The notes under the pieces are model-generated. The model had not been told where the DNA came from. It saw only the letters and a program-made list of their open reading frames with translations, and did no database searches. DNA of 64,000 nucleotides from Margaritispora aquatica (taxonomy: Eukaryota; Ascomycota; Leotiomycetes; Helotiales; Discinellaceae), in the NCBI GenBank assembly GCA_007644065.1, contig VJWN01000001.1:3238340-3302339 (forward strand). The letters run 5' to 3'. Positions within the stretch are counted from its first letter, which is position 1, and each line of letters opens with the position of its first letter. Below are positions 4,482 to 19,912 of this stretch, one piece after another. The translations under genes were made by a program, and so were the position numbers.

Positions 4482-7400
4482 CTAGTGGACTAGTGCAGCT
4501 GTTGTGCGCGGCAATTCCAAGTAAAAGCTATCTAAGCCATCCTCAATTCCTTGTGCTTCTCTACCAGTTCCATTTACCATTCTAGAGGGAAATACGACAG
4601 GAACCTCCCAAGGTTTCACCCCGAAAGCTGACGCTTTCTCGACAATGTCGGCAGGAGGCTTGTCCCATCCGAGGGTCGTCATACAAAGCTCAGTAATGCT
4701 ATTAGCTAGGGCAAGATTTTCGTTACTACTTTCAGCCCATATCTGCTGCATCGATGCCCAATGCTGCTGCTGTGTAGGAGGAGGGGTAGGTGTAGGCGTA
4801 GCCAATAACTCTGGCAATAGGTCCACCTGAGTCACTGGCGGAAGCTGAGGTATCAAATTTCCACCTGAAATTCATTAGTTTGACACTTTTCACAAGCATT
4901 ACTATGCTTACCTGCACATAACTTTGCCATATCAGTGGCATTGAACTCAGGGATACGCGACTGTGCCAAGATCGGCCTTGGAGCAGTGAACGTAACTGCC
5001 ATTGGCAAGTCAATTGTTCCTTTCTCTCGTGTCAGCCGGTCTGGTGGATGCTTGGGATCGGCCCACAAAGTCTGTGGCATGGCCTTCACGATGAATGAGG
5101 GCTTCCATCCTTCCGTGGCAAGCCCTTTCTTGTCCACATCCTGAATGGCTATACACAACTTAGATGTGATTCCCTCGCCACCATCAGTTGCCGGATCGGC
5201 AGCTAGTTTCATTGGCAGCGATGAAAGCCTAGCTGGAGATGAGATTGACGGAACTTGCTGCATCTTTGCTACATCCTGGTCGTGGAGCATCGCAGTACTG
5301 CCGTCAGTTTGGCGTAGTGAGCTCTCTCTTGTCTCAACATATGCTGAAGTAACCGCAAAGACAGAAGATACTCGAAACTGAAAACTACCTCCTTTCACAT
5401 ACCACTTGCTGCCAGCACCAGTATCATCAGGGGGTGCACCTGCAACCTTATCCTCGGAAGGCATCGAGAATGACCCTTCTTCTAAGCTCATCTTGATGCG
5501 CACAGTCAAACCCTGGGCTGCCTGATTGTTTGGCGACGTGTCGGGCGGACCACTCTTCTCACACAGGGCGTAAAATTCTTCAAGGCTGATAGGTTTGGGA
5601 TCACTAGTCGTGGTCCCGAAGTCAAAGCTGAAGGAGAAGAACCAGAAATCAACATAAGCAGTTCCGCCAAATTCGGGGCCTTGAATAGCAAGACCTGCAC
5701 CAATGGAGATTTTGATGTGCAGGGTGCAAAAGAGGAGGGGGATGTCACATTTTACACCAACTTCGACGTGCATTGAAACCCAGTAGTGGAGTGGAGAGAA
5801 TTGCACCATTGCTACCTTTAAGTCAGCGCGATTGCCTAAGAAGAAAATGTCACTTACCATCAAATGCTGCGTCTAACCATGCATACACCGGCCCAAGCGA
5901 CAATTCGCATCGGATCATGCAGCCCGTCATGATTGCTTTTGGAGTAATTGCAAAATAGGCTTCCCCACGAATATGGATGATAGCGATATTGAAATCCAAT
6001 CCAATCCGGCCAGGACGAGGATACCAAGGGGGGATATCAAAGGCACGATGATAGCCTCCGACTGAGAGAACCCAATCTCCTGCGTGGGGATTACTGCCAA
6101 AGAAGGTGTAGAGTGCCAGACCACCAAACAACCGACAATATGGTACTAAAACAAAAGACGTAGGTGCAAGTGCTGCTTCGAGCTTGAAGACATCGTCAAC
6201 GAAGTTCAGCTCAGCTAGCATCAAGATCTCGATATTGAAAAGCTTGAGCTTTGCTGGTGCATCGGGTGCGACTGGCGGGTAGCTGATTGTAAGGTCACCA
6301 AAGAGACTGAAGATGCAGCCTATATCTCCGAATTGGACGAGAGCCACAATCGTTGCATTGATCAAGTCAAAAGAGCTGATTGTGAAGCCAAAGGCGATCC
6401 ATATTTCGCCTTGCTTCATCTGCACAAATGGATTGGATCCGCCTTGCATCTTCTCTAGGATCGCCATTGGATGCTATCAAGGTCAGCCAACATTGTTGAT
6501 ACACATTGCGATACTTACATTGCCTGCACCACTGACGGTTCCATTGTCGATAAGTGGAAACTGAGCCAACTCCTCGACAGCTGGCGAGCGGACCATACTA
6601 TTGTAACCAAACCCAATACGCAAGCCCTTGAGAATGGCAAATTCGAAGTCGATAATCGGACCATCAAGCTTAGCGAACACGAAAACACTCTTGAATTGCC
6701 CTTGTTTGTTAGTGACGATGGCATACTCACCAACTGCAACAAAAGTGTAAGGTGGGACCGAAACAGCGATGCCGCCCCTATAAGCATCCACAGTGTTACC
6801 GCCACTCTCAGTGACATCGTGATAGAAACAACCAGCGATGAGAATGGGAGGCTTATCAAACGCAACTTCCATGCCATGAAGCTGGAAGTCTATTCCGCTC
6901 ACAATGGTCAAGAGGGAAGAGAGATCGTTGAAATTGATGCCACCAAGATACAGACCAATGCCAAAACCAATCAAGGAGAGCGAGAGTGGTCCGAGACCAA
7001 GGGTGGCATCGATAAAAACCCATAGATGACCATCTTTGTATTGCAGAGAGACAGCAGTAATGTCCAAACTTCCAACGCTTAGCTTCACTGGCCCTTTTGA
7101 AGGTGGCTTCTCTTGGATCTCAGAGCCAGGTGCAGGGGTAGTAGGCGTAGGAGTTGTCCCTGGAGCCGTCTCTTGCGTCGTCTTTGGTTGCCCCGAACCA
7201 AATACATGATCCAAAATTGCCTCGTTGTTGTACACGACAACGAAGTGATGTCCTTCGACTAGTACTACTATGTCGGGTGAAGAGGCATCGAGATCGTTCT
7301 TAGTTGATGCTTTGAAGTATAATATATTGTCTGGCCCCTCAACTTTGAGCAGGTCGTTCAATGCTTTGACCTCATCTCGTGTCAGGCCGCCAGTTGGAGA

Positions 7401-9625
7401 CCACATATACTGGAGTTTTTGCCACGGTTGCGGAAGCTCTTTTACAACTGGGAGGCTACTGAGTAGCGGCAGCTTACCAGCACTCACTCTAAGAATTCTC
7501 TTGGTGATTGGGTCTCCTCCGTTAGCTACAGATGATGACAACTGTTCGATTGTAAACTCAACTGAAGCTACAGACAAATTAAGGAGGAACACCGCTCTAG
7601 GTTGAGGTCCCATTGAAGTTTGGCTGATAACTTTGCTGCAATGTATACCAACCAAGTGGTCACCCTCAGCAGGAGTAACCTGGATGTTCCTGATAAAGCT
7701 TGGTAAGCTGCTAGAGGCATTATCTGCAATGGAGTCTGCAATCTGTCCAATTGTCGCCCCGCTGCCGATCGTGGGGTCTAGATATGCGTCAAATCTCCAT
7801 TCGGAAGTCTCAGTACTCTCGATAGGCTTGAGCTTGTCATTGCCGGGCAAACTTTTGGCTTGGTTGGCTGCTGGGGTGCTCTCGGATTCGAATGCCTTTT
7901 TGGTGACATATTGGTAGAAGAGCTTCAGTCGAATGCCCCCAAAAGTGACGATTCCAGAGAAGAGAAAACTCGTTGGCGTCTCATCTTCAATCGTGTACAT
8001 TGAATCAAGGGCGTCGATATTCAACTTCCCTACCACTTCTAGGACTTCATTCTGGAAACCAGGCTCGAAAAAATTGATGATCGCTCCAAGTTGGATGTTT
8101 CTAACACCAGCAGAAAGCGCCCATCTTGATGGCCCACTACCTCCATTCGTGTAGTTCAATGCGACGGCCATGCTTCCCGAGCGAAATCTACCAGAGGTCG
8201 AGTTCAGGGCGAACGTAGAATTAATGCTGAAATCATTCACATCCTCTTCTCCGTCTACCATACCTCGATGGCGATAGTCGAATGATACTCCCGTCCAATC
8301 AAATGGCATAGGCATATTACGAGTGTCGGCTTTACCAGTCGAAGGTGTTGAAACCATAGCTGCCGAGAAATTCAACTCAGAAGGACCATCCTCGAACCCA
8401 TTGGTATAGGTTATGAATGCTTGTACTAGCCTTGTCGGAATGAATTTGGGAATTCCGCTAAGACTGTGAATGTCTACCAAGTCATAGAAAGGCTTCATCC
8501 CGGATAGGATCGTCGGAGGCAAGTCTTCGAGATCGTTAAAATTCGGATCTAGCCGAGATCTAAAGCGGTCCTGAAAGAGCAGACTTCCACTGAACTCTCC
8601 TGCTCTGGTGTCATAACTGAGTCCAATCTTAAAAAAATCAGTACCGGCGATTTTGAGCTCCACAATGAAGGAGATCTCGAACGAAGTCTCATCTCCAAAG
8701 AAAGTATCAGAATTGGGGAATCTAACGGTCATCTTCCATAACTTGATGTTGTCCAAAATACCTGCCGATGGTTTCGCTTCACTTTCCGATGGACCGTTTG
8801 CTAGCAATTGAAGGAGATTCCCAAGAGAACCTTGGTCTTTGTAGTTAAGTAATCCTACTTCAAGCATGCCATTGCTTCCTGTTTTCAAGCAGACTAGGAA
8901 GCCAGAAATTGGTAGTTCAACGATTATCTCAGAAAGGACGGCTCTCTCAAAAGTATTATCTGGGAGTTTCTTGACGATGACGCGGTGCTTTAAGCGTAAT
9001 AATGGGAGGTCAGACGAGAACATGAGACTTTGGGGGTCTAGTTGCAAAAATGCATCATCTTTGAAGGATGAATGTGCTGATTGAAAGTCTACATTTTGCC
9101 CAGGGATCATCGAGAAAGTCAATGCTGTCACAAGCTATCCATATGTTAGTATGTGAGATCTGAACACTTGGGTAAACCTACCTCAAGAGTGACTGCATCG
9201 AGAGAGATTATCCAACATCCATCCTTCGACCCCTCCGGGTTACCAATCTGGAACTGAGGAAGCACATTGCCGACAGGAGTTTTCAAAACATCAATCAGTG
9301 TTCCAATGACCGGCGGGTAATTCGTTGTGTCAATATCGAAAGCAGTCAAGATCTCGCTGATAGAATATTTATTGGCTCCAGCAGTCTCAAGCGCAAAAAG
9401 AACCGAATCAAGACTCTCATCAACCGGTCGAGATATCTCAAATGATGTCCTGACGGCTGCATCTAAAGTCGTGAACTTGGTCCCTTGAAATCGAGTGTTT
9501 TGACACTCAAGAATACCTGCGCTTGCTGGTGTGGGTTGCGTGAGAGTCCCTGCTTCCGCGATGAATGGATTCCATACTTGCTTTATCAAACTGTTCTCTA
9601 GAACGTGCACCGCAGTGTCACCCAT
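4482..9625 (-). CDS. Giant DUF6603-like protein (1652 aa), first member of the giant-protein cluster
   Basis: Function unknown. Five exons on the minus strand (9625-9182, 9134-6519, 6473-5858, 5811-4912, 4864-4482) join in phase into 1652 aa. The third intron is read as 46 bases (5857-5812); a nearer AG would leave only 22. Residues about 1-800 are beta-rich with no known domain. A Thr/Pro linker at about 808-833 leads into a Gly-rich, alternating-hydrophobic region (about 834-1285) with motifs such as LGLGPLSLSLIGFGIGL and GPEFGGTAYVDFW, which I recognise from memory as DUF6603. A second Pro/Thr linker lies near 1545 before the conserved-looking tail. No signal peptide is seen. The gene is divergent from the 1371-aa gene with 692 bases between starts, suggesting co-expression. 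Intact splicing and frame argue for a working gene. DUF6603 assignment: fairly sure; role: not known. Confidence 0.8.
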
Positions 9626-10317
9626 CTTGAGCGGCCAAGGTAGGTATATATACCATGGAACTAGGATTTACGACACGATACTATTGTGTGGCTCGAAATC
9701 ACTATCAAATTGTCAACTGCATCGAATTCACCAAATTGCATGTCAGTCATGCAAGTATATCGCCTAAGGTAGACTTGTGAGTATGCAGTACGTTGAATCC
9801 GAATTGTCTCCCTAACACCCCGTGATCTTCCAGGCCAAAGGAATAGCGACGGGAAATTCCCAGATCATGATTCCTCTTGGAAAAAGTCAGCCCTGTGACA
9901 AAATCCGAGTGGCTGCAGCGGGCGGCAACTCGGTGGCAGGCATGCAACTCAGCTCGACATCCCGCATTTTCAGCTTTCTTGCTTCTTTGATTGATGAGTT
10001 TCGATAGGTGTAAACAAGATTGTCGAGGCTTCACCGAGGCTTTCTCTTTGACATGGCATTGTCGTGCCGAGTGAAAAGTGTGGTAGCACATGTGTTAGAT
10101 AGCCAGCCTTCTTTTTTGGCATTCCTTTCAGCCCTGATATCGAGTGTGTACCTATTCTCTTGTGAACGCCACTTGTTACACGGTAGGCTCTTCGTTCTCG
10201 GAACTATGAGCACGTGAGAAATTCGGTACACGTTGAGCATTCGCCCTTTTTATCACTAGCACCAGTTGCTCGCCAGCGTTGCGTACTTCAATATCACGAG
10301 ATACATGAGAAGCTACC
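9626..10317. promoter_or_regulatory. Shared divergent promoter of the DUF6603-like and 1371-aa genes
   Basis: The 692 bases separate two divergent start codons, so they must hold both promoters. Seen here: a TATATATA stretch at about 9645, the 11-base palindrome GGGAAATTCCC at 9851-9861, the 10-mer GTGGCTGCAG at 9909-9918 (also present twice in the second divergent promoter of the cluster), and a pyrimidine-rich stretch with CTTCTTTTTT at about 10110. No ORF of interest. Confidence 0.55.
9909..9918 (+). promoter_or_regulatory. GTGGCTGCAG motif, copy 1
   Basis: Exact 10-mer shared with 15678-15687 and 15824-15833, all inside divergent promoters of the giant-protein cluster. Candidate binding site for a common regulator. 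This is inference from recurrence only. Confidence 0.35.
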
Positions 10318-13300
10318 ATGGCGACGAAAATGGAAAATATCTCAATTCCAATCAATCTCTCAGCGTTCGTTCTGACACCAGAATGTGTTGCAAGCGAAGG
10401 CCCAGCCCGTATCGGCATTATCTCGCAACCTAATTACATGGGACTTAGACTCGATGAAGCTCTCATGCAGCATGATTTAGTTGATCATGTTGATTTTCAC
10501 TCCACTTATCCGGCAAAGCTCAATGCTAGGCTGACAGACATTGGAGCATTCACTTATGATGCCGAGCCGCCCAAGTATCGTCGAAATCGAATGGGTGTTT
10601 ATCTGCACTGGAGCCTCCCAAGATGCTACAGAGCTGCCCAGAAAGCACAAGAGAATCCGAACAGGCCCAAAGGAGTTCGGTCGGAGCAGGAAGCGGAAGA
10701 TCTATCGACTCCAAGGTTTCCAACAGTACCGAACAGATGGCTGGTCGCTCGAAGGCTCAATTCTCAAGCCAGCGAAGATGGTACGAAGTTGTCGACGTTC
10801 CAGACATGGGTTGTGGAGAGCAACAGGATACGAAAAATCCAAGATGTGGAGGACACTGTCGACATTGAGGTCGAAGTGAGCCCCTTCATTCGAGAAAGCA
10901 CTGATCCAAATGACCCGGATTGGAAGAAAATACTTGAGCAGCAAGCCGAGATATGTATTGGCAAGCGAAACGAGTACACTGGATGGGGCAGTTCTCGAGG
11001 CCTCTGGACCGAGAAGGAAAAGGGCATAGATGGTGAAATAGACTTCATGAACTTGACTGTCCTTGGCAGTTCCAACCCCGTCTTCCCTGATTACGTCCCT
11101 CACAATGGAAGTGTGTTTTCCATAATCGACAATTTCAAATATCAAGCCAGTGATGGTACAACTAAGTACCTCACAGAAGCCAAGGCTGATTATTTCGTCG
11201 TTGGCTGGAGTTCGCTACCTAAAAACGATCTGGTGAATTCTTCCTCAAACCCCTTGCGTGCAACGCTTGATGCACTAAAACTCAGTATTCAAGGCTACGA
11301 TGTTGCCTCAGGAACCGAAAAGAACCGTCTTGATGGTATTCTAGACAGCAAGCAAGGGACCCATTCGATCATTCATGGCGCAACGTACGGCGTGCCTTTC
11401 AAGTGGGGAAGTAAACCAGAGGACAGTAAAGCAGAAAAGCTTGCCGCAAAATTTACTGCAGGCGTGACCATGGAACCTCTATCTGTAGGAACAACTCCTT
11501 TGGATGGCATCATGACATTCTTACGAGCTCATAATGAGGATCAAACTGAAGCAATATTTGACGATGAAGAGGCAGACGACGTTGCTAAGACAGTTCTCAC
11601 CCTGAGCGATTTGCTTTATGCTTCCAATGATTCCTTTGACGAAAGAGCTAAAGCACAAGACATCAACTTGTACCAAGCACTGTACGCCAAATCCACTATT
11701 GCAGGTTACGAGTGGGCATTTGCAGAGCCATCAGAGCCTGGCAAACCGCCGAAGACACCGACGCCTGCACAGTACGCAACGCTCCTTGATCTGAACGAAA
11801 AGCAAGCTCGATTTGATGCTCTTGAGAGAAAGCTCGAACAGCGACGTTGGGATCTATTTGCCGAGTGGTGGAAGTATGTGAGTGACAAGACGAATATATT
11901 GAATACCATTCAAGACAAGATCAGAGCTAAAGTCAATGATCTGGTTGCTCAAATACGCAACTTGGAAACTTCAACATCGAAACTCCGTTGGGACCTGACC
12001 CAGGCTCTCAGCAATCCTTCGCTTAAAAGAGTGAACCAAAGCCCGTTCTACACCAAGAAGGAACCTACAGTTTGTATCGCAGGTGTGAACTCGGGCTGGC
12101 CAAAGGACTTCTTGGATGTTTTATCAGTTCGGCTCGATAGCCAGCTGCCGTTTAGTACCGATCCTACAGAAATCACTGGAGTTGAGACAACTGTCTTTCC
12201 TGGAGCGATAAGTCCTTTTCCAGACGCGGTGAAAGCAACAGCACTGAGGATATTAGGAGAATGTATTGGACGCACAGAAACTACTGTCCAATCAACAAGT
12301 ACGAAAGGATTTCAATTCTGGGGCAAGGAGAATCCATTCGAGCCCCTCTTTGTCGAGTGGGAAGCTCTATACTATCACATCGACCGCTCAAAATGGACTG
12401 TCGACGTCCGACCAAGCCCAGTCGGACTCCCAACCTCGCACGTGCGCTATGGTGTTCCAAACTTACTCTCTACAGACACCGCAAACCAGAAAGACTTCCG
12501 CTTCCTCAGTGGTCGAACATTGATACTGCCTCAACCTGTCTTCTCCTTAAAAGCTGCAGTCCAAGCCGTCATTGACAGTAATGACCCAAACTCGCCTTTG
12601 GATGACGATGTGAAGAAAGAGCAAATTTTGCATGATATTGACAAGTTGCAATTCATGTCGTGCCCGCTTTCGGGTATTCAGGAGCACTTGCTGACTCGGG
12701 TTATTGGGACTCATGTTAAGCCAACTGTAAATAAGCCCGGTAAAACGAACATCCCACTCGTGCCTGCAGCCCAACTAGATATTGGATTCACTGAAGATGT
12801 GTTGAAGTTAATTGACTCTCAGAGTGATATCACGCCTTATGGAAATCTGCTCAATTTCTCGCCTACAGTATATCCTATGGCGCCATTCAAAGGTGTCACG
12901 CATGGCCAGATGCTGATCACAAAGGTATACATCTTCTGAACAGGTTCACGTCGTATTAAACATTGTTGCTAACTAAGCTAGTTCAACATAATTGACAAAT
13001 TCGGCCAAGCAATTGCATTGCCGGCTCCGATGCCAAAATTGAAAATTCCGCCACCAGTACCAGAAGTCATTCATCCCTGCTTGAGTGATTTTGTGGTGCC
13101 GGACATCATAGATAACCAACTCAATACTGTGTATCCCGAAAACCAACCGCTGAGGCCAGGAGAATGGCCATTGTGCCGATTTATCCAGCTCACTCCAGCC
13201 ATCAACCAGAATTCTCGCTTAAATGCGAGTTTCCTTACCAGATCTGCCACTCCTGGGTTCCCTTTCTGGAATGAAACAGAGAATGACAAGCCAGAGTCTC

Positions 13301-14490
13301 CAATATTCGGGTGGATTGTGATCAATTATCAAGATGCTGGACTACAATTCTTCCGTCCTGATGGAAGATTCTATCGCGAGATCCGAGTTGGAGGAGTCAA
13401 TAATGCCGTAATTGGCTCCAAGTGGCTTCCCTTCGATCCCCCATCAGATATGCAGACAGGAGATCCACAATTGGATGAGCTCATCAACAAAATAATGGAC
13501 CGAAATGACCAAGGGAAGTTCTTGAAATCATTCTTTCATATGATCAATGGAGCTATTCAGACGATGCCATTTACTCCAACTGAGTATGCGGGCTACACCA
13601 ATGCGCTTGTAGGAAAGCCTTTAGCTCTGGTCAATGTTGGATTCTCACTGGAGCTGGCTATTCCAGCACTTACCGCTCAAAATACCCTCGGAAATCTACC
13701 TACTAATGAGCAGGAAGAACTTAGCTCGTATCAATTCCCAGTCAAAATCGGAGATGCTGATCGTCCATTTGATGGTGTTGTTGGCTATTTCGATACAGAC
13801 AATATGGCAACAGGAAAGACAAACTGGGGCAAGGTGCATACATACTTCGCTGATCCTACGAATCCAGCTTTTGAAAGTATTACGCCTGGAAATTTCATGC
13901 GTCTCTCACCACACTACGTCGACCCTGTGACACTTAAAGCAACAAGCTCAAATACCACATTCACAACATACAGACAAGCTCAAGTTGCCCAGTACAAGAT
14001 TACAACGATGGTGGTTGATCCATATACACCAATTCACGCTTACAGTCCAATCCTTCCCATCACAACTTTGAGATTGCCACCTTGGACGATCCAGCAAGCT
14101 ATGACCCGAATGACTGCTTTCTTCCGACTCGGTCCATCGCTGGTATCGCTTGATGTGCCCCCAACCTACGACCCAGATCGGAAATTGACCCCCGAGTCCT
14201 GGTCAACACCACTTCCCGATGGCGCTGGGACGAATTCGCCTTCGATGCCTGCAATCACACTTCCAGTCTCAGGAAAGAAGGGGCTTTGGCGCTGGCTGCA
14301 ACCATATGATGTGCCAGGCAATACCGTTGCTGATCCTCATGATACGAGATATAATGAGATGGATGTTTCTCAACAGGATACAATAATTCGGAAAGACGTA
14401 CCGCCTTACACATTTGTGGAAGGATATCTGCAGCTTGCGAGGCCACTGTTGTCTGGAGATATTACTCCTGCTGGTACCTCGAATCCATAG
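10318..14490 (+). CDS. Uncharacterised giant protein (1371 aa) with coiled coil, second cluster member
   Basis: I do not recognise a named family. Exons 10318-12924 and 12982-14490 join in phase (LITK to FNIIDKF), with branch GCTAAC in the intron. The protein is acidic to neutral with no signal peptide and no membrane segment. Features: MGVYLHWSLPRCYR at about 92-105; a long heptad-like helical region at about 489-565 rich in Glu, Lys, Arg and Leu; then a segment EPTVCIAGVNSGWP at about 580; and a C-terminal half with many short aromatic/Pro strands. The HWxLP motif and the segment after the coiled coil remind me of large uncharacterised bacterial proteins; this is memory, not a search. It shares its promoter region with the DUF6603-like gene and converges on the four-span gene (216 bases between stops). 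Probably one working unit with the neighbouring giant genes. Confidence 0.8.
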
Positions 14491-14705
14491 TTTGCTCTAG
14501 GTGAATGAAATTAATCGCACTCTCACTTCCAGGACAGAGACATTGGCCTGCATAATATGTTGTTGAGGTCAAGTTTCCATTTCAGAATTATTTCTATGCA
14601 AGTGATCACACCTCGCTGATGCTTATCTTTCAAACCAATCAATGTTGCAAACAATACCAGCAGTCCACCTCTACTCCAAGTCTAACCTACTAATCGACAA
14701 CCGCC

Positions 14706-15563
14706 TCATACACGAAATTGACCGAGCCATGTGCCCGAAATCAGACCAGCAGTTAGAGCACTGAAAAGCCACCCCAGGGACATATATATCGTCAAAACAT
14801 TGCCCTGTACCCACGGGGCATGGTGGAGATCGCCAGTTTGACTATCCTGAACTGAGCCCAGGGACAAAGTTGCCCAGGCTCCGTTGTCTGGTTGACTCTG
14901 CACCAAGCCAATAATTCCATAAAACTGCGATAAGAAAGCACACATTGCTGTCACTGCAAGAAAAGCGAGTAAGATGTATGTCGAGATCATGACAGCTAAT
15001 GGTTGGCCAGAAACTGGTTGAGTTACTGGGTTCTCAACCACTGGTTCGGTATCTGGGCTTGTGCTTTTGGAACGAACCGTTGTTGAAGTGGTAGTCGTGA
15101 TCGCAGTTGCATTGGGACCTTTGATGATGAAAAAGTACGACAATACTAGTAGGATCGCGAATCCAACACTGGTGAAAACCAGAGCTGCAAGAATCAAGTT
15201 GCCAGAAAGGTGAACTTGCTGGCACATCCTCCAGTCTCCAGTGACAGCAGAGTAGGCATTTGCCTCGTTTGGTGCTTGACAAGCCGTTTTCCCACGTCCT
15301 GTCACGGCATACCGAGAGCAGACCAGATCATAGGTCGTCGCTTCTGAACCGTTCTTCGAAGGATTCGCATTGCAAAGAATGAAAGGACTCCGATATATGG
15401 TGAAAATCGGTGTGTTCCAGTCAAGCGGCTGCAGTTCTGGCGGAAAGTACTCCTGACGAACCCAGTCTCGAGAGACAAAAGAGGTGATGAGGAAAGCAAA
15501 TCCAAGAATGCCAAATATTAGAGGTGTGGCAGCGCCGATGATTTGAATAAGCGTTCTTGCCAT
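14706..15563 (-). CDS. Claudin/SUR7-like four-span membrane protein within the cluster
   Basis: Intronless, 285 aa. Four hydrophobic segments are visible at about 8-30, 121-147, 190-219 and 255-277. The first loop is long and has four cysteines (64, 82, 95, 114) and an N-glycosylation site (NGS at 71-73), as expected for an outside loop. A Ser/Thr-rich cytoplasmic loop (about 150-187) separates helices 2 and 3. The topology matches fungal claudin-like proteins (SUR7/PalI type) that sit in the plasma membrane, but no diagnostic signature for a named member was found. It lies between two giant-protein genes and is divergent from the 1223-aa gene (584 bases between starts), so it may be the membrane partner of the cluster. 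That role is inferred from position only. Confidence 0.8.
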   Translation of the reverse strand: MARTLIQIIGAATPLIFGILGFAFLITSFVSRDWVRQEYFPPELQPLDWNTPIFTIYRSPFILCNANPSKNGSEATTYDLVCSRYAVTGRGKTACQAPNEANAYSAVTGDWRMCQQVHLSGNLILAALVFTSVGFAILLVLSYFFIIKGPNATAITTTTSTTVRSKSTSPDTEPVVENPVTQPVSGQPLAVMISTYILLAFLAVTAMCAFLSQFYGIIGLVQSQPDNGAWATLSLGSVQDSQTGDLHHAPWVQGNVLTIYMSLGWLFSALTAGLISGTWLGQFRV

Positions 15564-15677
15564 TTTCGACGTTGATTGTGATAGTTCTATCTGCGTTGGA
15601 GCCGTTTCTCACAATGACAAAATATGGGTTGAATTTCGCCAACATGGTCGAGGAATTTGAGAACGGCACATTTCTGT

Positions 15678-15687
15678 GTGGCTGCAG
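15678..15687 (+). promoter_or_regulatory. GTGGCTGCAG motif, copy 2
   Basis: Exact 10-mer, 115 bases upstream of the four-span start codon. See the copies at 9909 and 15824. Confidence 0.35.
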
Positions 15688-15823
15688 GGCTGACAAAGGA
15701 GCAAGACATGGCCAAGAATTTGGTTGTTTGGCTTTACGACTGGGTATTCTCCGTTCTCCAATGGAGAGTCACAGATAAATTGCAGGTTACACCAGCTGAG
15801 GAGTGATGCTCAGCTGCCATTTA

Positions 15824-15833
15824 GTGGCTGCAG
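15824..15833 (+). promoter_or_regulatory. GTGGCTGCAG motif, copy 3
   Basis: Exact 10-mer, about 315 bases upstream of the 1223-aa protein start. A CAGCTG palindrome precedes it at 15811-15816. Confidence 0.35.
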
Positions 15834-16147
15834 GAGAGATGCATGTGTTCCCTCCATCCCAAGCCGGGAAGCAGGCAGCAAAAACAAGCGGTGCTTCAGC
15901 AAAATACGGTAAACTGAACCTGATTATCGAAACTTTTAATGCTTGATTTACAGTAAATGGGTCAGTGGATCTTGAGCTCACAGCTTGCTTCTCGATTGTG
16001 CCTGAACATGCGGTCTCTAGATTACTATCGACTGGACGCAAAAGTGTACGTATCAAAGCATGATCGTTCAGAAAAAGACTCTAATGTATCTCCAGGTCGA
16101 GTATATAACATTCAATTTCGTGTCCTCGATGGGCAATAGCAGTCATC

Positions 16148-19100
16148 ATGGTCATTCAGACTCGAGCCAACCCCAAAGGACCTCGGTTCTTGACCCAGAG
16201 GAATCTAGAATTGAATATTCAAGCGCAAAGCGGTGATGAAAATGAAGATCGTCCAGTTATCACTCCAGGGTTCATGCAATTGTTCTCCTACTACAAGCCC
16301 GGATTAGCAGCTGGAAATTATGCCATCACCGCGGAGCAGTTCATCTCATCAAAGCAGGGAACTTCGACTCAAAATCTCAGAGTTTGCAACTGGAAAGATG
16401 TGGCAGTATTGCCAGATAACCAGCCCTCTGAGCCTCAAATATTTGAAGTCATGGCCCCTCAGTTTCTTCTGGACCCAAAACTCGTAAACAGCTTCTATCC
16501 TCCTGAAGGTCATCAAGATGAAGGGCGAATATTGCCTCACATCGTGCTCAGTGACCCTCATTTTCCCTGGGAGAGAGACGCTGACCAAGCGTTTAACGGT
16601 GGCGTTGGTGATCCAACATCTCAACTACGCGATCCTGATCGCAATGCGGCCGGAGAAACACTTGACAAGAATGGCAATGTCACGACAGTTCCTGCAGACA
16701 TGGCTTATAGGTCTATCATACCATGGATTCGCCTTCTTGTTTTCGATGTCGAGGAATTGAAGTTAGATTCGGCGCAACAAGCACACGATCTGGGTGTACC
16801 TGATTTCGCTGTACTCTCAAATGCGAAGGCTGACATCAAGCGACAGCCTGCCAATGGAGCTTTTCCGATGTTAGCCAAAGACTACTTCGGCATCAAGAAA
16901 GAAAATCGAATAGATTTTGAAACAGCATTCACTTCTGACCCTGCAGGCTTCGAGGAAATCAGCACAGGTCGTCGTTCAAAGGAGGCGACGCAAGTGATTT
17001 ACCCAACGAAAGATACTTTTCACACGCTTTGCAAAGATGTGGAGTCCAACAAATATTTAGCTCATGTGAGGAATATCAACACCATCGGATTTCCTAATGC
17101 AGGAGTTGAAGACAATGGTCTGTACAGTATCGTTATTTCGGCGCGTGCTGGCTCCTTCAATATCACGAGACCAAAAACCCAGGTGGTGCATCTTGTTTCG
17201 ATTGAAAATGTGCATTCAACTCTGCAGTCTAGGTTTCAGAATTGGAACACAGGGACACCTGCTGGAGCGGAGAGGATTGGACTAATCTCATTGTTCTCCT
17301 GGACTTACACAGCACTTCCGCCCAATCCAATCAATTTCGTAGATACCGTGATGAGAATAATCGGCAGTAACCAGGACTTTGACGGCTCGACTCAAGATCT
17401 CCCCTTGAAGGAGAATAAGGGACGAATGGAAATGCTACGAGCTCCGCAAGAATTGATCCAAGGCCTCGCTAATAAACCAGACATGCGCTCAAAACTTTTA
17501 GCCACTCGATTAAATCTTGGGTACAGCATCGCTCGGTGGCGATGCGAGACAGGGGAAGTGACAGCAGCATTTAACAGAGGCCCGCTCGCTCCAATCCAGG
17601 TCCCTGGAGTGCCGTCTAAAGACTGGCCGGCAGGTTCCCAGACAGGGAGAAACTTTCAAATTCTGGATAAAACGACAGGACTAATGGACCTCTCCTATTC
17701 TTCTGCCTGGAATCTTGGGAAGACTCTGGCAATCTCGGACACCTCGTTCAGTGCAGCATTAATTCGTTTCCGTAGTCAGATTCATAATGCCAGTTCATCA
17801 ATAGCGCGTGCAAACGTTAATGGGCTTCTCTCACGAGCAGCAACACTCAAATTGCTCATCAATGGAGTGAAAAGTATACAATCTCGACTTAGCGATAAAG
17901 TTGAAGCACCGAAACGAATAATCGTCCCGACAGGTCAAGCTGTGGCAACAAACCTGACTGATCCTGGTATTGCGAGTGCAATGTCAGCTGCTGTTCTCGA
18001 TCAAGTTACTTTGGCATCGCAAGCGGGAGATGAAGTTTTCAATGAATTTAATACCACTGGCGAGAACAATACAGACTGGGCGATCATCCTGCGCTGGATC
18101 ACTGATAAGCTCTATCTTGGTGACATTCCCGCACATATTCTCTTCCCTGATCCAATCTACATCCCCGAAGAGACCCTTCGCTTCTTCTACATTGATGACG
18201 TTTGGATGGACTGCTTAATTGATGGCGCTCTGAGTGCTGGAAACCATCTTGAGAGTGATGATGATCAGATAAAATCAGCAATCAAAGACCTCTACAATTT
18301 GTATCTCTCAACAAGCATTCCAAAGAAAGACGACCCTAGTGTATCAATCAAACCGCAAATACCGTGTTATGGATTCGTTCTTCGAAGCCAGATCGTTAAG
18401 GTCATGCCAGATCTGAGGATTTCTGTAGGTTAATTAACGCTTAAACTTAACTTACTGACTGATCTCAGGTGAATTGGAACTCGCAAGATGGCCGAGCTCC
18501 AGTCTGTCAATGGCTGAGACCAGATGACCATACATTGATATGTCTGCTCGATCGCCCACCAGAAGAGTTAGCACCCTACCAAGACAAACATCCAGATCAA
18601 TCTGGGATAGTCCTCTCACAACCACCGCACCAGCAGCGATTCAGCTTCGGATATGCTTACAAGCCTGTTGACGATACCTTTGAGTTCAAATTGCGACATC
18701 TGTACACGAAAAATGCACCAGATGGTGAATGGCCACCCATCACCCCTCAAATACCACCAGGAAATGCGCCAAGTTTCTTCGAAACGATTGCAGCCACCAA
18801 GATTGATACTAAGACTAGAGTTTTGAAGACCACCGAGCTAGCTGCTGCCATTAATAAGGGCATTCAGCTGCAGACTGGCCAGGATCCTAACAATCCAACA
18901 TCCGCATACATTGACTTCGTCCCCAACTCAGCTGAGCTTGCGCTTGAATTGAACGATCCTGCATATTACTTCACGATTTATCCTGATAGAGGTCAAGAAA
19001 GCTCCAATAAAATACAAAGAACTCGACAATTGTGGAATACAAAACCGCCTGGAAGCTCAACGGTGCCAGGCGGGACCTCTCCACCTGCAATAGTGCCCCC

Positions 19101-19912
19101 CACCCCAATAGGAGCACCTATACATCCTCCACTGGCAGATGTACCGGTTCCAATTATCCCAGTGAAGGAAGATGTCCCTGGGAAAGCAGGTAAAGTTACG
19201 CTTCGAGATCATGGTGTCATTCCCATTAGCACAATCACACTTCCGCCGACCCAAATGCCAAAGAAGTGTTTCTCAATGGATGTATTTGTGAATTACCGAG
19301 GACTAAGGCCTCGTCCAGATGGTGTCTACGATCCAGGTGACTATGTACCTACTCAAAGCAAATATCTTATCGGTCCGTGTTCATATACTTAGCAACATGT
19401 ATCTCCGCTGACAAACTCTAGACTTGATATTCTCCATTAGAAAGGGAAATAACAGAACAGATCCTCGTAACGACCAAATGCTGCGCGAGATCGTCATTCA
19501 TGTCCCAAACACCCCAGATCCAGCTGAAGTCACTAAGACAGACTCTCTCATTACCAAGGAGTGGACAGGTCGCGCCCGACTACTTGCAAACCAAAGATTC
19601 GTCACTTTTGTCAGCAGAACAGACAAGTATCTTGAGATCCGCCTCATCCCACGAAGTGCGGATATCAACCCCGTGATCAAAATGAACGACAACAAGACGT
19701 TGGAGGTTAGCTTCACGCTCACGGAAGTGGATGTACCGAAGACGGTAGTCAAAAAGTTCTTTAACATCAAAGGTAGTCGGCAGAATGTTGAGTTTGGGTT
19801 CGCGAGGATTGATATGTGGGAGAGGTATCAACTGGATAAAGAGGGGCTGCAGGTCATTGCTGTGGCGGACACGAAGAAGTATTTTGTCATCAAGAAGGAT
19901 GTAGATTATTGA
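16148..19912 (+). CDS. Uncharacterised giant protein (1223 aa), third giant member of the cluster
   Basis: I do not recognise a named family. Exons 16148-18424, 18469-19372 and 19422-19912 join in phase. There is no signal peptide and no membrane helix. Landmarks: YYKPGLAAGNYAI at about 48-60, FYPPEGHQDEGRILPHIVL followed by DPHFPWER at about 116-143, PWIRLLVFD at about 191, and a Pro-rich linker at about 958-992 before the C-terminal region. The motif order (YYxPxLxxGxY, then LPHIVL..xPWER, then PWxxLLxFD) resembles, from memory, large uncharacterised bacterial proteins; I could not check this. Gene order and shared promoter words tie it to the 1371-aa and DUF6603-like genes. The frame is intact over 3.7 kb, so it is under selection. 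Enzymatic residues were not recognised, and a structural role is as likely. Confidence 0.8.

Follow-up and report, generated by a model that had tools for sequence, protein, structure and literature searches.

The genome of the ascomycete Margaritispora aquatica (42.36 Mb in 49 contigs) holds a tight cluster of three giant genes with a gene for a four-span membrane protein among them, and the locus raises the question of what these proteins do together and how such a set came to lie in a fungal genome. Throughout, the window is the whole stretch of 64,000 nucleotides that was analysed. The cluster spans positions 4482-19912 of the window, and its four genes, here called A, B, C and D, alternate between the strands (A minus, B plus, C minus, D plus):

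4482..9625, minus strand: gene A, a DUF6603 protein of 1652 aa in 5 exons (9625-9182, 9134-6519, 6473-5858, 5811-4912 and 4864-4482)
5372..7088, minus strand: the DUF6603 domain of A, given as the outer limits of the Pfam matches
9626..10317, no strand: the divergent upstream region shared by A and B, 0.7 kb by the gene coordinates
10318..14490, plus strand: gene B, 1371 aa, exons 10318-12924 and 12982-14490, placed by spliced translation and by fungal and bacterial homologues
14706..15563, minus strand: gene C, a predicted four-span membrane protein of 285 aa in a single intronless ORF
15564..16147, no strand: the divergent upstream region shared by C and D, 0.6 kb by the gene coordinates
16148..19912, plus strand: gene D, 1223 aa, exons 16148-18424, 18469-19372 and 19422-19912, placed by spliced translation and homologues

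A preliminary description of this DNA had proposed three intact spliced genes for proteins of 1652, 1371 and 1223 aa and a four-span protein, packed as two divergent pairs, and this arrangement was reproduced to the base. Seven GT-AG introns of 44-57 bases are predicted in A, B and D, and their removal would leave uninterrupted proteins of the lengths given above, which are those of gene models read from the DNA. Contamination is an unlikely source of the cluster, since the introns are short and of fungal type, the GC content resembles that of the flanks and a serine carboxypeptidase gene (Peptidase_S10) adjoins the cluster downstream on the same contig.

The DUF6603-like region that had been noted in the first giant proved genuine. 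PF20248 (DUF6603) matches three ORFs of A at 118, 193 and 70 bits, the curated Pfam cut-off being 27 bits, and a profile built from 42 long bacterial A proteins aligns to residues 685-1505 of fungal A with an E value of 3.6e-150. Gene A is thus a member of this family; however, Pfam states no function for it, no mention of DUF6603 or PF20248 was found in the literature searched, and the partner families B and D are absent from the libraries searched. A weak partial match to a DUF6603 protein in a haloarchaeal record, a Natrinema plasmid (NZ_CP100757.1, 1010462-1011040, E 2e-4), hints that the family occurs in archaea. B is marked by the motifs GVYLHWSLP and PNRWLV, and D by YYKPGL, LPHIVL and PWER, all of which fall within the part of D shared with bacteria; fungal D has a C-terminal extension beyond about residue 1000. 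These two giants did not turn out to be members of ordinary families. Pfam gave no family above cut-off for the window ORFs of B, C and D, one bacterial relative each of B and D had no family in Pfam, NCBIfam, PHROG or PADLOC, and profile searches of the PDB with B and D gave none either (best E 0.47 and 0.32). Likewise, the structure model of B found no counterpart among known folds. Four hydrophobic spans are present in C and also in the two ORFs of its match on another host contig (C46), so the term claudin-like, used in the preliminary description, holds for topology and fails for family, no Pfam family, claudin or other, being above cut-off.

When the first exon of fungal B was used as a protein query, it retrieved a distant bacterial-type protein, P0186 (E 9.8e-5), and a search with the latter gave 596 relatives, with Microcystis, Nostoc, Moorena, Pedobacter and Jidaibacter among the 120 listed. 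On plasmids of Paenibacillus polymyxa and of a Streptomyces, a DUF6603 protein, a hypothetical protein of 714 or 748 aa and a B relative are encoded in this order, and the middle one is related to D, with 45 invariant columns common to three bacterial and five fungal sequences. Scanning one genome per species for a B motif yielded 281 stretches, 272 of which encode a B relative. The top 80 were retained and joined by 6 of 8 plasmid matches, giving 86 bacterial loci that were picked by B alone; profiles of A, B and D were then run on these loci. All three genes were present in 71 of the 86 loci, A and B in 6, B and D in 4 and B only in 5, and every match to A, B or D lay on the strand of B. Gene order is mostly A-D-B, the other orders being mainly B, one or more other genes, A and D. 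Of the 15 incomplete loci, nearly all end at a contig or flank end where the missing gene could sit; the exceptions with enough flank are L065, where B stands without A and without D, and L026, a plasmid locus that has no A and carries a transposase upstream. The earlier link of these motifs to large bacterial proteins encoded beside DUF6603 genes was correct, and the association is general.

Co-occurrence was also followed within a single genus. Among 121 Streptomyces genomes, in which the best candidates per genome were scored and a miss is possible, A was found in 15 genomes, D in 10 and B in 9. One of the 10, G103, has D as two short pieces only; the 9 genomes with near-full D are those that have B, and each of them also has A. 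All 13 near-full copies of D lie within 2 kb of A; a split D in G140, with pieces on contigs C277 and C411, stands outside this count and resembles one gene cut by a contig end, and A adjoins its C411 piece. The independent occurrence that the preliminary description had named as grounds against its own reading was therefore not what we found, neither in these 9 of 121 genomes nor in the host, where the module is present three times. Against full co-dependence, some copies of A stand without D or B: of the 21 in Streptomyces, 7 have no D match. The DUF6603 copies without an adjacent B or D match (in G036, G053, G071, G101, G121, G127 and on G080:C34) suggest that the domain has another use besides. 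Over 51 loci, pairwise distances for the three proteins are correlated with r of 0.906, 0.909 and 0.943, to which host relatedness contributes, and 500 permutations of each reached 0.154 at most. When distant pairs only were considered, the correlations were 0.695, 0.679 and 0.774, with permutations at or below 0.192. These data show that A, B and D are a conserved bacterial gene unit with coupled inheritance, and their treatment as one module is well supported.

In the host genome the three module copies are the window copy (C1), one at about 206-225 kb of C26 and one at about 568-588 kb of C46. The trees of all three proteins agree on C1 and C46: these join in small trees of A and B (support 99 and 97) with C26 outside, and in a D tree extended by 14 fungal rows they fall within one 13-row group (support 100) without C26; all are unrooted quick searches with no bootstrap, and the small B tree carries a warning of long branches meeting, with one bacterial row placed with the fungal group. 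C has one other match in the host genome, two ORFs at 574.7-575.6 kb of C46, where it lies between B and D on the strand opposite to both, as in the window. No match to C was found in the C26 copy, so that the membrane partner suggested earlier stands for two of the three host copies, and the bacterial loci yielded none in 5518 ORFs (best E 2.1). The C26 copy carries between A and B a two-ORF gene that is lectin-like by eye, with no Pfam or PDB match (C26:213550-214636, that is L115:5550-6636, minus strand), and, also between A and B, at about 215.3-216.4 kb, transposase-like reading frames that by eye are of the Tc1/mariner type. Relatives of B or D are present in Cadophora, Lojkania, Clohesyomyces, Amniculicola, Curvularia, Rhinocladiella, Exophiala, Fusarium, Xylographa, Zymoseptoria, Penicillium and others. 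Fungal neighbourhoods outside the host were judged by pairing of contigs, using 119 D clusters among the 120 listed of 136, and 14 of 66 B clusters sit on a contig of equal size to that of a listed D cluster. In Rhinocladiella, the locus tags of the B and D relatives are three apart.

A larger B tree of 76 sequences, for which uneven letter make-up was flagged, places 31 fungal rows on one side of a branch (SH-aLRT 100) and 45 bacterial rows on the other; the fungal rows comprise 2 of the host's own, 17 with a fungal name and 12 labelled fungal by similarity. The fungal group has a long stem (1.18) and adjoins a gammaproteobacterial locus with a support of 97. A single fungal origin is well supported, and the data fit one old transfer from bacteria to fungi followed by duplication. 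We infer the direction of this transfer from the distribution of the module over many bacterial phyla, on which it rests because the trees are unrooted. The proposal of a bacterial-type multi-protein module living with introns in a fungal genome thus gains support from the coupled bacterial cluster and from the three fungal copies. Some yeasts reportedly carry enterobactin genes as a bacterial operon taken up by fungi. Like that operon, A/B/D is a multi-gene bacterial unit that stays together in a fungal genome; unlike it, A/B/D seems to have been transferred long ago, occurs in several copies across many ascomycetes and has a role that is undescribed.

Structure prediction for a bacterial DUF6603 protein (mean pLDDT 79.5) gives a run of mostly amphipathic antiparallel beta strands that resembles large beta-barrels and ApoB, its structural neighbours including ApoB100, LptD, ushers and porins. 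Alternation of hydrophobic and polar sides reaches 2.62 in this model, compared with 1.15 +/- 0.17 in shuffles, and 4 of the 24 modelled strands show almost no alternation. In fungal A, six stretches exceed a crude span threshold and may be strands or spans. A crude test of bacterial N-termini, based on hydrophobicity only, was passed by 2 of 83 A proteins, 13 of 88 B, 0 of 73 D and 0 of 65 fourth proteins (described below), and by 34 of 303 background ORFs; the N-terminus of fungal A has no export-type hydrophobic stretch by a test of the same kind. Since the parts are mostly without export signals by this test, the assembly would be made in the cytoplasm; B may be exported, given its 13 passes.

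Our favoured reading, for which we hold belief and doubt to be evenly balanced, is that A, B and D are the core of one cytoplasmic assembly engaging lipid or membrane, that it was probably acquired once by an ancestor of the filamentous ascomycetes, and that a fourth protein or C targets it. The three would be core subunits in physical complex; in bacteria of many phyla their genes form a same-strand cluster with the usual order A-D-B. The fungal ancestor would have taken up this cluster long ago, probably in one event, and in fungi introns would have been gained, divergent gene pairs formed and the whole module duplicated. The amphipathic strand run of DUF6603 may take up lipid or lie on or in a membrane, and B and D would serve as scaffold or cap subunits. 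In bacteria, the conserved core and varying binding modules of the fourth protein would set the target of the assembly; in fungi, C or other local partners may tie it to a membrane. The sheet of A could instead pack simply against other protein, because its matches to barrels and to ApoB have large rmsd values of at least 7.5 Å.

The fourth bacterial gene is where a phage connection comes into view. Clustering of the neighbours gave one dominant family, found in 59 of 86 loci. The core domains of the fourth gene are of two kinds that never occur together, in 34 and 39 loci, which sum to 73 of 86, a few of these core matches lying inside other genes, B included. Pfam scans of 112 of the 140 downstream or in-between genes detected LamG in at least 16 genes, Collar in at least 9, Peptidase_S74 in at least 4, F5/8 type C in at least 3 and Kelch in at least 2. 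Five fourth-gene proteins were searched with PHROG: two matched tail fibres (best 3.5e-57), a third matched a virion structural family and two had no match. This pattern resembles that of a receptor-binding or fibre protein, and the fourth gene is a reason for caution, in that the origin may be phage-tail-related. Peptidase_S74 was not found in the host fungal genome. Besides, the core domain shows up in other genes: at L096:5110-9948, the gammaproteobacterial locus that neighbours the fungal group in the B tree, D is fused to a fourth-gene core, and the C-terminal extension of fungal D has a weak match to the domain fused there; in L036, L041 and L044 the C-terminus of B itself matches one fourth-gene core domain.

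These fibre-type matches count in favour of a device of recognition or delivery derived from phage tails, in which the fourth gene would supply the fibre, a baseplate-like hub would be formed by B and D, and A would puncture or dock to a target membrane, with contractile parts absent or supplied from elsewhere; we judge this rather unlikely. Peptidase_S74 and Collar-type domains are reported on eCIS fibres (PMC12923769, PMC8213781), and to that extent fourth genes with such modules, present in some loci, resemble eCIS fibres. A CIS tube-type gene (gp19, PF06841) is present in 12 of 20 module-bearing genomes, and about 9 kb upstream of A the Paenibacillus polymyxa plasmid carries a DUF4280 gene together with two baseplate V genes. 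However, the tube-type match is never in a module locus, lying more than 200 kb from A or on another contig in all 12 genomes, and it is absent from the other 8, which sets the module apart from eCIS. Apart from the baseplate V genes 9 kb off on that one plasmid, neither sheath nor baseplate is among the families listed in the Pfam tallies of 159 neighbours, each of which names at most 25 families. Two of the five fourth-gene proteins lack any PHROG match, one A and one B query had no relative in 50,697 phage records, B had none in viral contigs, and the B model gave no viral match with E below 1. The module is not classed among the contractile injection systems, as the tube-type gene is never near A and is missing from 8 of the 20 genomes.

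The more variable neighbours would suit a role in conflict or defence, with the neighbours as effectors and A, B and D as the sensor or pore, a reading that we regard as improbable. Upstream of one operon (L094:839-2125) lies a gene for a metallo-beta-lactamase-fold protein that matches the Lamassu effector model LmuA (2.8e-12) and whose family occurs in 9 loci; Pfam found at least 9 Lactamase_B and at least 3 Exo_endo_phos among the 159 neighbours scanned, and CHAT and CATRA genes adjoin one plasmid copy. The patchy occurrence, with A in 15 of 121 Streptomyces, would also agree with such a role. Most loci nevertheless lack effector-like neighbours, and no PADLOC model was matched by the core (one bacterial protein each of A, B and D) or by two fourth-gene proteins, the LmuA match being that of an accessory neighbour and not of the core.

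The strands of A raise the question of a genuine pore, that is a closed beta-barrel of about 24 strands inserted into the membrane of a target or organelle and served by B and D as chaperones or plug, and this we likewise consider improbable. The bacterial A model shares with outer-membrane beta-barrels (LptD, FimD, the Mtr complex, porins) its amphipathic up-and-down strands, but it differs from them by a large rmsd of at least 7.5 Å, by having no export signal in the crude test and by its presence in Gram-positive bacteria and fungi, which have no outer membrane of the usual kind.

The best Foldseek match of the A model is ApoB (E 9.1e-5), and A has in common with the ApoB beta belt its long amphipathic antiparallel strands. 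An intracellular lipid-scaffold particle could be built in this way, the ApoB-like belt of DUF6603 wrapping lipid, B and D closing it, and fibre-like proteins in bacteria or C in fungi giving it an address; we think this quite improbable. The likeness is offset by a low TM-score (0.28 by target) and an rmsd of 18.8 Å, and A would be cytoplasmic by sequence. A vitellogenin-type N-terminal lipid-transfer domain is the mark of ApoB and of large lipid transfer proteins. No such domain was found in A, DUF6603 standing alone in Pfam scans of three fungal ORFs (first exon left out) and of one bacterial A. If true, such protein-lipid particles would exist outside animals too, and a single operon encoding them would have been inherited across kingdoms.

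Finally, that A, B and D are ordinary neighbours with unrelated roles, as the D-less A copies in Streptomyces (7 of 21) might suggest, is hardly credible in view of the same-strand A/B/D arrangement in 71 of 86 loci over many phyla, the three module copies in one fungus and the agreeing trees.

No described kind of system corresponding to A/B/D was found in the literature and libraries searched, nor, in that literature, a described function for this giant three-protein unit. The module is conserved in cyanobacteria, actinobacteria and Bacteroidota as well as in filamentous ascomycetes. Its retention across kingdoms and its three copies in one fungus argue for a strong joint role. Three orphan genes are hereby turned into a defined system with testable partners, for which B serves as the marker by which the module can be found, and whose bacterial operons, in tractable strains, are open to deletion and purification.
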